Source: Longimicrobium sp.
GTDB lineage: Bacteria > Gemmatimonadota > Gemmatimonadetes > Longimicrobiales > Longimicrobiaceae
Direction: 5' to 3'
Assembly (NCBI RefSeq): GCF_035474595.1
Contig: NZ_DATIND010000091.1
Coordinates: 62,001-126,000, forward strand
Length of the DNA stretch: 64,000 bases
Below the pieces are notes generated by a model. That model was not told the DNA's origin, ran no database searches, and was given only the letters and a program-made list of their open reading frames with translations. Positions within the stretch are counted from its first letter, which is position 1; each line of letters opens with the position of its first letter. The position numbers were made by a program, and so were the translations under genes. Shown here in pieces: positions 15,834 to 26,752 of the stretch.

Positions 15834-18607
15834 TGCGTGTCCTCCTTCACGGGAACCGGCTGCTCCAGGTGTCCCTGGCGCACGAAGTCGTCGATCGCCA
15901 CCGCGTCGGTGGTGCGCCGGTCCATCGCCGCGACGGCGGCGGGATCCGGGGTGACGTTGATGGAGCCCGACGGCGTCTGCACCGTCACGCCGCGCGCCCC
16001 GGCCGTGGGCGCCAGGCTGGCGGTCCGGTTCGCGGCCACGTTCCCCGTGGTCCGCTGCACCAGGTCGTTCATCGTCCGCCGGCCGCGGCTCATGGCCAGC
16101 AGCGCGTCGGGGAAGTCGCTCTGCAGCGCGGGGCGGCGCACCATCACCCGCGCCACCTTTCCCGCGGCGCGCTGCACGATCCGCCCCGCGCCGGGCTGCC
16201 TCAGCGCGCCGGCCGCGTCGAACTGCGCCACCACCGCCTGCACCAGCGGGTCGTCCTTGGCCGCGTTCTGCTCCAGCGGCGCGGCGGCCACGCCGGTGAC
16301 CACCTGCACGCGGTTGCGCTCTGCCACCAGCACCAGCGGCTCGCCCAGCTGCCCGTTGGCGCCCACGCGGCGCACCTCGGCGCGCCAGCGCGGCGCCTTG
16401 GCGTACCCCTCCACCTGCGCGACCAGGGCCAGCGAGTCCGCCGCGGCGGGATTGGTGACGCTCATGGCCACCAGCTGTCCGCGCTGCCAGCGCCCGGGCT
16501 GGTACACGCGGTCGGTCCACCGCTGCTTGCCCTGCGCGGCGGCGTCGTGCGGCGCCAGCGCCAGCAGCAGAGCGGCGAGCCCCGCCGTCACCACCGCCTT
16601 CGCGGCTCCGGGCAGGGTCGCGGGTGCCGCGCGGCGGCGGCCCTTCAGTTCGTGAACGAGCACGGCCTGCTCCTTTCCCTTCACGTGAACCTCCCGCAGC
16701 GGCGCCGCGTCGTAGCCGTCGCCGAGATAGGTACGAACGGCGTCGCTGATGATGATGGTGGTCCCCATGTCCTTGTTCAGCGACTCCAGCCGGCTGGCCA
16801 GGTTCACCGCGTCGCCGATGGCGGTGTAGTCCAGCTTGTGCTTCAGCGAGCCGATCATCCCCACCACCGCCTCGCCGGTGTTGATGCCGATGCCGATGGC
16901 CAGCCCGGCACCCCGCCCGTCGGCCGCCCACCCGCGGTTCAGCCGCTCCAGCGTCTCGATCATCTCCAGCGCGCAGTCGGCCGCGCGCCGCGCGTGGTCC
17001 GCCGCGGGAAGCGGGGCGCCCCAGAACGCCATCACCGCGTCGCCGATGAACTTGTCGATCGTCCCCCCGTGCCTGAACACGATGTCGGTCATCGCCCCCA
17101 GGTACTCGTTAAGCGTGGCCACCACCGTCTCGGCGGGAAGCCGCTCGGAAAGCGAAGTGAAGCCGCGGATGTCGCTGAACAGGATGGTGAGCGGAACGCG
17201 CTGCCCGCCCAGCTTCAGCGACTCGCCGGCGTCCGCCAGCCGGCCCACCACGTGCGGGTCCACGAAGCGGCTGAACATGTCGCGCACGCGGCGCCGCTCG
17301 CGCCCCTCGGTCACGTAGTTCATCGCCATCGCCCCCGCGTACGCCAGCGCGCCGCCCAGCGCGGGGGCCGCCGCATCCAGCCACACGCCGCCGGCGAAGG
17401 CCAGCGCGCTGGCGCCGACGGCGAAGAGGAGGAGAAGCCCCGCGGCCAGCGTCCCCCACACCGCCGAGCCCACCACCGCCACCGCGATCGCCGTGGCCAT
17501 CGCGGCCGCCACCACGCCGAGCCAGTTCCACGACGCGTCCGCGCGGCGCATGAAGTCGCCGCGGAGCAGGTTGTCGAGCGCGGTGGCGTGGATCATCACC
17601 CCCGGCTCCGTGCCCCCGAACGGTGTGCGGCGCAGGTCGTACAGCCCGCTCGACGTCACCGCCACCAGCACGATCTTCCCCTTCAGCTCCGCCGGGGGGA
17701 TCGCGGGCGGGCGGCCGTGGAAGACGTCCTCGTACGACAGCACCAGCCGCGAGTACGAGTACACGGGGTACGTCTGCCGCGCGAAGGGGCCGCGCCAGCG
17801 CAGCAGCATCTCCCCCGCGTCCAGCGGCACCGCCGTCCCCCGCCCGTCCGGCCGCTCGCGCGCCGCCAGCCGGTCCGCACCCAGCACGAGCGGACCGCCG
17901 TAGCGCGCCGAATCGGCCAGCCGCGCCGCCGCGTACGCGAGCGACGGGTAGAGGCGTCCGCCGTGGCGCCACACCAGCCGCTCGTGGCGCACGGTGGCGC
18001 CCACCGCGCCCTGGTTCAGCGCGATCGAGCCGATCCCGGCGGCGCCGCGGGCCAGCAGCGGCGTCGGCGCCAGCTCGAATGCCTGCTCGGCGGGACGGAG
18101 TCGCCCGCGCACCCGCAGCGCGAACCGCTCCGTTTCAGCCTCGCCCGACGCGCCGGCGCGGACCCCTTCCGACGACGGGCGCTCCGGCGCCAGCGCCATC
18201 GGCAGCACCGCGTTCCCCGCCTCCGCCATCGCCTCCGCGAAGTCCGAGTCGCTGGCCGCATCCAGGTCGGCCTCGGGGAACTGAACGTCGTAGACGACCA
18301 GCTTCGCGCCGGCGTAGTTCAGGAAGCGCAGCGCCTCGGCGTGCGCGCTGCGCGGCCAGGGCCACCTGCCCACGCTCGGCGCCAGCTCGGCCAGGCTGCG
18401 GTCGTCGATCGCGGCGATGACGATGTCCTTCGACGCGCGCGACGGGTCGGCCAGCGTGCGCGTCATGGCGTCGTATACCGCGCCCTCCGACTGGCGCATC
18501 AGCGAGGTGCCGCGCAGCGCCAGGACGAGCACCGAGGTCGCCAGCCCCACCGCGGCGCCGCGCCCCAGCCTGCGCAGCCGCTTCGACCGGAGCTGCGGGT
18601 CCGCCAT
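15830..18607 (-). CDS. CHASE2-domain class III nucleotide cyclase with an extra secreted-type C-terminal domain
   Basis: 925 residues. An N-terminal membrane segment and a CHASE2 extracytoplasmic sensor occupy about residues 1-350. Several membrane helices follow (about 355-450), then a class III adenylate/guanylate cyclase domain (about 470-640) with FSDIRGFTSLSERLP and DKFIGDAVMAFWGAPLP. After the cyclase there is another hydrophobic stretch near residue 665-682 (AVVTAGLAALLLALAPHDAAAQG), resembling a signal peptide, and about 240 further residues of unknown fold. The frame is continuous across this junction. It may be a real fusion that returns the tail to the periplasm, or two genes fused by loss of a stop. 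It forms an operon with the M48 gene. Confidence 0.88.
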   Translation of the reverse strand: MADPQLRSKRLRRLGRGAAVGLATSVLVLALRGTSLMRQSEGAVYDAMTRTLADPSRASKDIVIAAIDDRSLAELAPSVGRWPWPRSAHAEALRFLNYAGAKLVVYDVQFPEADLDAASDSDFAEAMAEAGNAVLPMALAPERPSSEGVRAGASGEAETERFALRVRGRLRPAEQAFELAPTPLLARGAAGIGSIALNQGAVGATVRHERLVWRHGGRLYPSLAYAAARLADSARYGGPLVLGADRLAARERPDGRGTAVPLDAGEMLLRWRGPFARQTYPVYSYSRLVLSYEDVFHGRPPAIPPAELKGKIVLVAVTSSGLYDLRRTPFGGTEPGVMIHATALDNLLRGDFMRRADASWNWLGVVAAAMATAIAVAVVGSAVWGTLAAGLLLLFAVGASALAFAGGVWLDAAAPALGGALAYAGAMAMNYVTEGRERRRVRDMFSRFVDPHVVGRLADAGESLKLGGQRVPLTILFSDIRGFTSLSERLPAETVVATLNEYLGAMTDIVFRHGGTIDKFIGDAVMAFWGAPLPAADHARRAADCALEMIETLERLNRGWAADGRGAGLAIGIGINTGEAVVGMIGSLKHKLDYTAIGDAVNLASRLESLNKDMGTTIIISDAVRTYLGDGYDAAPLREVHVKGKEQAVLVHELKGRRRAAPATLPGAAKAVVTAGLAALLLALAPHDAAAQGKQRWTDRVYQPGRWQRGQLVAMSVTNPAAADSLALVAQVEGYAKAPRWRAEVRRVGANGQLGEPLVLVAERNRVQVVTGVAAAPLEQNAAKDDPLVQAVVAQFDAAGALRQPGAGRIVQRAAGKVARVMVRRPALQSDFPDALLAMSRGRRTMNDLVQRTTGNVAANRTASLAPTAGARGVTVQTPSGSINVTPDPAAVAAMDRRTTDAVAIDDFVRQGHLEQPVPVKEDTQ

Positions 18608-21060: not shown

Positions 21061-21326
21061 TGCGGCGAGAGTGATGGCATCGACAACGATGGAGATCAGA
21101 GCGGCGCCTTCGGACGGGGGCGCCGCTCGCCGTTCCGGACCGGGGCGGCGGAGGCACCGCCGAAATGGCGGGTGGCGGGGTGCGGAACTGTCGGAATCGC
21201 AGGAAAACGGGCACAAACACTTGGCATATGCGTTGCTCTTCACCCGGGCAGCAATTCCGCGCCCGGGGGATGAGATTGCCCGCGGGCGCACTTCAACCGC
21301 GAATCCGACAATCCGAAGGAGAACCC

Positions 21327-23288
<1,962 letters not shown>

Positions 23289-25612: not shown

Positions 25613-26064
25613 GCTTCGCTCCTCTTGGGATGGGACCCTACGGAAGTGGACGGGAAAATACGGGCCACCGCTCCACCCCGCCAGATTTGACGCGGAACGG
25701 GCGCGCCGCATCACCTCCGCGCCAGCGCTGGGACGATCGACTTCTCCGGTTACCCGGCTATCCAGCCATCGGCTGGGAGCGCGAGACCGCCTGCGGCCGC
25801 CGCTGGTGACTGCTACGACCCGAGACGCTGATCCCTCGCAATGTGATGACGATAAAGAGGCGGCGCATCGAAGCACCGCCCTCCCGTGGTTCTGGCGACC
25901 GGGATCATTCCCCTACGGAGTCTGCAACTCCTCGTGTCCGTAGAAGAGAGGGGCAAATCGAAGAGATTGGCGTAGACAGTATGGGTGTGTCAGCGTAGAC
26001 TGTGTGTACCGGGTCGGCAAAGGCCGGCTGCGGCTGCGGCAACCCATGCTCTCCGGGAGACACC
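25613..26064. other. 452-bp gap with a short direct repeat upstream of the Cys-rich peptide gene
   Basis: No credible gene is seen. GCGTAGACAGT (25970-25980) and GCGTAGACTGT (25993-26003) form a direct repeat with a 23-bp period about 60-95 bp before the peptide start. It could be a regulator-binding site. The stretch is less GC-rich than its surroundings. Confidence 0.45.
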
Positions 26065-26403
26065 ATGCGCAAGCTGAAGCTCGATCTGGACCACCTCGCC
26101 GTCGAATCGTTCGATACGAATCCGTCCGAGGGTGCGCGGCGCGGAACCGTACAGGGGCTCGCTCGAACGCTCTTCGACACGTGCCTCTGCTCCGGCGGCG
26201 GCACCTGCGGCATCAGTTGCGACCCCGGCTGCGACAACAGCGTCGGCGGTACCTGCGACGCCAGCTGCAACGGCACCTGCGACTGGAGTTGCAACTGCAC
26301 CGGCAACTCGTGCTATGGCACCTGCAACGCCACTTGCAACGTCACCTGCGACACCTGCCAGACGAACTGCCAGCAGGAATCCTGCGTGTACGTCTGTCCC
26401 TGA
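26065..26403 (+). CDS. Cys-rich RiPP-like precursor peptide with VESF-type leader
   Basis: 112 residues. Residues 1-36 look like a leader: charged KLKLDLDHLAVESFDT, then ARRGTVQG. Similar LxVESF...RGTV leaders occur on pinensin-type lanthipeptide and related precursors in Bacteroidota and Longimicrobium-like bacteria (family knowledge). The core (40-112) has 18 Cys. Cys 64, 68, 72, 76 and 83, 87, 91, 95 form two runs spaced exactly four residues apart, each preceded by Ser or Thr. GGGAGA at 26054-26059 supports ATG 26065. No maturase, protease or transporter gene is adjacent, so it is an orphan in this window. It might instead be an unmodified disulfide or metal-binding peptide. Confidence 0.75.
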   Translation: MRKLKLDLDHLAVESFDTNPSEGARRGTVQGLARTLFDTCLCSGGGTCGISCDPGCDNSVGGTCDASCNGTCDWSCNCTGNSCYGTCNATCNVTCDTCQTNCQQESCVYVCP

Positions 26404-26556: not shown

Positions 26557-26566
26557 CACTTGGCAG

Positions 26567-26640
26567 TAGCAGGGGGGGGACTCGAACCCCCGACCTTACG
26601 ATTATGAGTCGTACGCTCTAACCGGCTGAGCTACCCTGCC
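26567..26640 (-). tRNA. tRNA with CAT anticodon (elongator Met, or Ile2 with lysidine)
   Basis: 74 nt, no encoded CCA. It folds fully: acceptor GGCAGGG/CCCTGCT with a G-T first pair, D-arm GCTC...GAGC, anticodon arm TACGA-CTCATAA-TCGTA, variable AGGTC, T-arm GGGGG-TTCGAGT-CCCCC. The anticodon is CAT. The ACGACTCATAATCGT stem resembles tRNA-Ile2 in enterics, while the rest resembles elongator Met in Bacillus, so identity is open. Confidence 0.93.
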
Positions 26641-26678
26641 ACGCAGAAGGCCGGCCCGAGGACCGGCCTTCGCGAGAG

Positions 26679-26752
<74 letters not shown>

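Follow-up and report, generated by a model that had tools for sequence, protein, structure and literature searches.

The window analysed here, a 64,000-nucleotide stretch of a Longimicrobium sp. contig, carries on its plus strand a short gene for a Cys-rich peptide (Table 1). Translation bore out the preliminary description, which had reported a leader of the VESF/RGTV type, 18 Cys and two runs of four (S/T)-Cys spaced by four residues. The Cys lie at positions 40, 42, 48, 52, 56, 64, 68, 72, 76, 78, 83, 87, 91, 95, 98, 102, 107 and 111, and from 64 to 76 and again from 83 to 95 their spacing is exactly four, with Ser or Thr before each Cys. When the core was shuffled 100,000 times, no version reached the observed 13 Ser/Thr-preceded Cys, one run of four (S/T)-Cys arose in 0.03% and two runs arose in none. 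A Pfam search of the precursor gave no match.

Table 1 Features of the focal precursor gene, in window coordinates
Feature	Position	Strand	Description or basis
Orphan precursor gene	26065..26403	+	112 aa; core with 18 Cys and 18 Ser/Thr
Leader peptide, residues 1-31, MRKLKLDLDHLAVESFDTNPSEGARRGTVQG	26065..26157	+	Probable pinensin-type class I lanthipeptide leader; match to NF038180 below cut-off, match to model A1
Core, residues 32-112 (81 residues)	26158..26400	+	Ser/Thr at -5 of 13/18 Cys and at -1 of 13/18
First strict repeat, T63-C76, with (S/T)C at four-residue intervals	26251..26292	+	Shuffle test; ring assignment inferred
Second strict repeat, S82-C95	26308..26349	+	Shuffle test; ring assignment inferred
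GGGAG, ribosome-binding-site-like, 5 nt upstream of the ORF	26055..26059	+	Sequence
TGGCGYAGAC element, ~97 nt upstream of the start	25968..25977	+	Conserved only in the two orthologues

Two orthologues were found, in two other genera (G015:C82, 64%; G014:C438, 61%). Their cores differ in length and hold 16 Cys against 18 in the focal core, with the pattern kept. Between these two orthologues and over the C-terminal segment dN/dS is ~0.2-0.3, indicating purifying selection in the core. The focal open reading frame is a real gene, because it is conserved in two other genera at this dN/dS. The synteny expected of orthologues was absent, both with the window and between the two orthologous loci, and only the gene and ~100 nt upstream of it are conserved among the three. 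The gene and the ~100 nt of DNA upstream of it appear to move together as one unit (window 25968-26064, L129 and L130), through unrelated contexts in three genera that share no synteny. The TGGCGYAGAC element within this unit is a possible part of the promoter; a search for a promoter motif common to the isolated precursors found none, and the element is private to the focal orthologues. Across 170 paralogues, the stretch from -12 to -6 upstream of the start is G/A-rich.

The focal gene is an orphan, since its neighbours within ~10 kb are housekeeping genes: an HtrA-like protease, DivIC/FtsB, enolase, NAD(P)H-hydrate dehydratase and PNP. They also include a Panacea-domain protein, a protein with CHASE2 and adenylate/guanylate cyclase domains (15836-18607) and a pair of neighbouring tRNA genes, each with a CAU anticodon, which lie immediately downstream of the precursor on the minus strand (26566-26752). 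The gene at 21165-23288 we take to be DnaK from its sequence rather than from a search. No maturase was found among the neighbours within ~10 kb, in agreement with the earlier observation that no modification enzyme is encoded nearby.

Leader family and lanthipeptide enzymes

The focal peptide has one NCBIfam match, to the pinensin-family lanthipeptide leader NF038180, at 16 bits (E 0.0086) and thus below the cut-off of 24 bits. The family is far better represented elsewhere in the same genome, where 20 paralogous leaders match NF038180 at E <= 0.001, most of them over the cut-off. A protein search of the genome gave 124 matches on ~52 contigs, most of them to the leader. The focal leader matches a leader model made here from an alignment of 40 sequences (A1) at E 7.9e-16, the focal sequence being itself part of the model. 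All 150 candidates scored with A1 in the focal genome match, so that it has at least 150 leader-bearing open reading frames, nearly all distant from any maturase, and Cys-rich cores of the focal type are common among these paralogues. Among 41 genomes, two relatives (G001 and G008) also hold at least 150 leaders each, others hold 83, 80, 49, 19, 11, 5 and 1, and 31 have none. Because an NCBI model of the leader exists, some paralogues are probably already annotated as pinensin-family lanthipeptides. Tandem arrays of ~5-7 leader-bearing precursors occur at six loci of the focal genome (L031-L036, on contigs C97, C80, C70, C28, C109 and C3), surrounded by housekeeping genes and with neither a maturase nor a transporter recognisable in the vicinity.

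The focal genome (G000) has LanB genes on two contigs, C4 and C23, the second of which also encodes a class I LanC, so that the glutamylation and elimination domains of LanB and the LanC cyclase are all present. On C23, the LanB N domain, a separate Lant_dehydr_C protein, LanC and six leader-bearing precursors follow one another on one strand, and an ABC transporter, HlyD and an S8 protease lie further along on the same strand. LanB is split at this locus (L027), with PF04738 and PF14028 on separate open reading frames, the former cut by the contig end. The C23 LanC scores closest to LanM-type cyclase domains, as has likewise been reported for LanCs of the pinensin group (PMC7268733). Its translation contains the motifs SAWCHG and SLCHG, which correspond to C...CH zinc ligands. 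The LanB N-domain genes on C23 (L027) and C4 (L030) are both cut by contig ends and are 86% identical over 541 nt; that they are a single gene split by the assembly was rejected, as the pieces overlap at this identity and represent two genes, either real duplicates or a strain mixture in the draft genome. The genome also encodes two class II LanM proteins (C25, C136) and one class III LanKC (C87), at L028:5239-8370, L039:300-2906 and L040:5598-8408. None of the window neighbours or C23 cluster proteins scanned with Pfam matched the radical SAM family PF04055.

Leader paralogues directly adjoin LanB/LanC genes at C23 and in the relatives G006, G008, G009, G014 and G015, a positive outcome for the search for leader paralogues near maturases that the preliminary description had proposed. 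Cys-rich cores are likewise linked to parts of this machinery. On contig C206 of G001, 13 precursors stand in tandem, several of them with TC-rich cores that hold 14-20 Cys and in which (S/T)C often recurs every four residues; they adjoin homologues of the C23 ABC, HlyD and S8 genes. On G008:C98 and G006:C30, precursors with 14-17 Cys in a three-residue period lie within 2 kb of LanB. The focal gene itself adjoins no maturase in any of the three genomes carrying it or an orthologue, and for this reason its link to a maturase rests on the leader and on statistics.

Register of Ser/Thr and Cys and the predicted ladder

Core composition was examined in 153 cores, clustered to remove close relatives; they come only from the loci fetched and are enriched for Cys-rich cores. 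Within this set, the number of Ser+Thr rises with the number of Cys (r 0.90), the partial correlation at fixed length is 0.55 for Ser+Thr vs 0.20 for the next best residue, and Ser+Thr equals or exceeds Cys in 97% of the cores. The ratio of Ser/Thr to Cys is 18:18 in the focal core and 16:16 in both orthologues.

In a further comparison, Cys positions were held fixed and the other residues shuffled. Ser/Thr occupies position -5 of Cys at a frequency of 0.48 vs 0.225 expected, and position -1 at 0.52 vs 0.25. The enrichment at -5 persists where no Cys stands at -4 (0.317 vs 0.210, z 8.7), including in cores that have no more than six Cys (z 6.0), and it is seen again in each genome or group of genomes considered singly. 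The cores with a three-residue period near LanB show it as well, but there it is indistinguishable from -2 and -8. The signal at -1 is as strong as that at -5; a ladder accounts for it only where a Cys lies four residues away, and a residual -1 signal is left where there is no such neighbour (z 5.4). A reversed C-x-x-T ring, considered on account of a Ser/Thr signal at +3, was rejected because that signal vanishes once Cys at +4 is excluded. In the focal core, Ser/Thr stands at -5 of 13 of the 18 Cys where 4.5 are expected, a number that none of 20,000 shuffles reached.

Taken together with the leader, the enzymes and the distribution described below, these patterns make it likely that the focal gene encodes the precursor of a class I lanthipeptide of pinensin type that is matured in trans, probably into a mostly i to i+5 ladder of ~13 and up to 18 rings. 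Its 31-residue leader would be recognised by the split LanB and LanC, whose genes lie on different contigs from the precursor. LanB would dehydrate Ser/Thr in the core, and LanC would add Cys to dehydro residues on its N-terminal side, mostly from Ser/Thr(i) to Cys(i+5). This is the usual class I direction and also that of the pinensins, which disrupt fungal membranes and whose LanC adds Cys to N-terminal Dha/Dhb (PMC13060382). Because Ser/Thr immediately precedes Cys and the units repeat every four residues, successive six-residue rings would interleave by two residues and build up a thioether ladder of ~13 and up to 18 rings. The predicted rings are S59-C64, T63-C68, S67-C72 and T71-C76 in the first repeat and S82-C87, T86-C91 and T90-C95 in the second, while the other five Cys may be joined in different registers to the five Ser/Thr left over, be linked in disulfides or keep their thiols free. 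By analogy with C23 and C206, an ABC/HlyD transporter would export the product and an S8 protease would trim it, both being shared with other precursors. Modification of the focal peptide itself, its ring pairing, its export and its cleavage site are predictions drawn from these family-wide features. A single small group of lanthipeptide enzymes, with genes at other sites in the genome, probably modifies every one of the at least 150 scattered precursors that share the leader.

Use of the Ser/Thr residues could also be incomplete. Five focal Cys have no Ser/Thr at -5, and long overlapping ladders are unprecedented (PMC11251773), both of which would suit a lanthipeptide precursor in which only some Ser/Thr are used, the other Cys are free or disulfide-paired and i to i+5 pairing does not predominate. 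The exact 18:18 and 16:16 stoichiometry and the dominance of the -5 register speak against this, and we regard it as rather unlikely. Partial modification or a mixture of thioethers and disulfides in the focal product is nevertheless possible, since 13-18 rings would exceed those of any reported lanthipeptide (PMC11251773).

Distribution of the leader and other routes to the product

The leader (A1), PF04738 over its cut-off and PF14028 are all present in one identical set of 10 genomes out of 41 and in no other. The chance of this co-occurrence of leader and LanB would be 9e-10 if genomes were independent; they are related drafts, and the figure is not to be read as an independent-sample probability. 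The same contrast appears within the genus, with seven genomes holding both and three neither, and within genus g10, with one genome of each kind. Together with the leader paralogues beside LanB/LanC, this shared distribution supports the earlier view of an orphan RiPP precursor that acquires thioether ladders from a maturase acting in trans. Beyond that view, the sequences point to a class I maturase (LanB/LanC) and to the focal peptide as one of at least 150.

Maturation by the class II LanM or class III LanKC enzymes of the genome, instead of LanB/LanC, would find some encouragement in the presence of two LanM and one LanKC and in the position of two leader-bearing open reading frames, one at ~4.6 kb from the LanM on C25 and the second at ~6.5 kb from LanKC. 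We consider it very unlikely on distribution. LanM occurs in 7 of 41 genomes; it is missing from four that bear the leader (G006, G007, G008 and G020), of which G008 has at least 150 leaders, and it is present in G003, which is leader-free. LANC_like proteins were found in nine leader-free genomes. Because the leader and the LanB domains share ten genomes, and LanM and LANC_like proteins do not follow them, the leader tracks class I enzymes and not LanM. The leader, moreover, probably belongs to a class I leader family.

The preliminary description had offered a metal- or disulfide-stapled helix or solenoid as an alternative to thioether rings, and a core of 18 Cys in 81 residues with no maturase adjoining the gene could indeed suggest a secreted disulfide-rich or metallothionein-like metal-binding peptide that carries no thioethers and uses its leader for export only. 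Disulfides and metal sites, however, need neither one Ser/Thr per Cys nor Ser/Thr at -5, and both features are family-wide, including in cores with few Cys; nor would a C-x-x-x-C period by itself produce the -5 signal where -4 has no Cys. The 1:1 ratio and the -5 register thus disfavour a stapled helix or solenoid, and we hold a core free of thioethers to be improbable. Least probable of all, despite the isolation of the gene and its changing genomic contexts, is a decayed or silent relic of a dispersed precursor that is no longer made or modified, as the frame is intact, the core is under purifying selection (dN/dS ~0.2) and the upstream element is conserved in orthologues of other genera.

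Comparison with known lanthipeptide systems

A class I lanthipeptide precursor matured in trans by LanB/LanC would share with the pinensins of Chitinophaga pinensis (NF038180) a leader of the type LxLxxLxVESF, a split LanB, a LanC nearest to LanM-type cyclases and the proposed addition of Cys to dehydro residues N-terminal of it. It would differ in scale and arrangement: pinensins contain two methyllanthionine rings and come from a local cluster, in contrast to the 18-Cys core, orphan gene and at least 150 paralogues described here. The focal gene, an orphan in all three genomes, departs from the local clustering of the classic pinensin locus, whereas its six C23 paralogues are clustered.

The many dispersed precursors, with a conserved leader, hypervariable cores and very few enzymes acting in trans, resemble those of the prochlorosins and synechococsins (ProcM, SyncM); in the focal genome, at least 150 leaders stand against two LanB and one class I LanC. 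Those systems employ class II LanM and Nif11-type leaders, unlike the class I LanB/LanC and pinensin-type leader found here, and the ProcM clade has a CCC zinc site where the C23 LanC has C...CH. In the portions of the literature available to us, up to 79 precursors of prochlorosin/synechococsin type are reported for one class II enzyme, the largest set in the literature searched (PMC9872173, PMC12328550), and we found no paper describing a precursor expansion such as the present one in the open-access literature searched. We tentatively suggest, as a possibility that falls somewhat short of an even chance, a class I system parallel to that of the prochlorosins, in which a genome carries at least 150 dispersed precursors and the largest products form unbroken ladders of 13-18 six-residue (methyl)lanthionine rings, interleaved by one repeated i to i+5 rule; these would be the most highly cross-linked lanthipeptides proposed.

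Rings D and E of nisin are interleaved thioether rings in which a ring's Thr stands directly before the Cys of the ring preceding it, and the predicted ladder is topologically like an extension of them; the nisin rings span four residues and overlap once, whereas those predicted here span six and repeat many times. Geobacillin I and elgicin, multi-ring lanthipeptides like the product proposed here, have seven rings each, the most bridges known (PMC11251773), as against the predicted 13-18. If the ladder is true, the focal peptide would exceed this count. A single set of class I enzymes appears to act on at least 150 precursors within a genome, and cores among the relatives reach 20 Cys. Confirmation would provide a very permissive LanB/LanC system for making thioether-stapled peptides, a testable rule for ring placement (Ser/Thr at -5) and a large natural peptide library in a poorly studied group. 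Genome mining based on gene clusters would miss most of these precursors. Near-perfect three-residue periods (CSNCSDCSNC...) are also seen, in a core with 17 Cys at L136:10824-11096 (G008:C98:18824-19096) and in one with 14 Cys at G006:C30:18999-19241.
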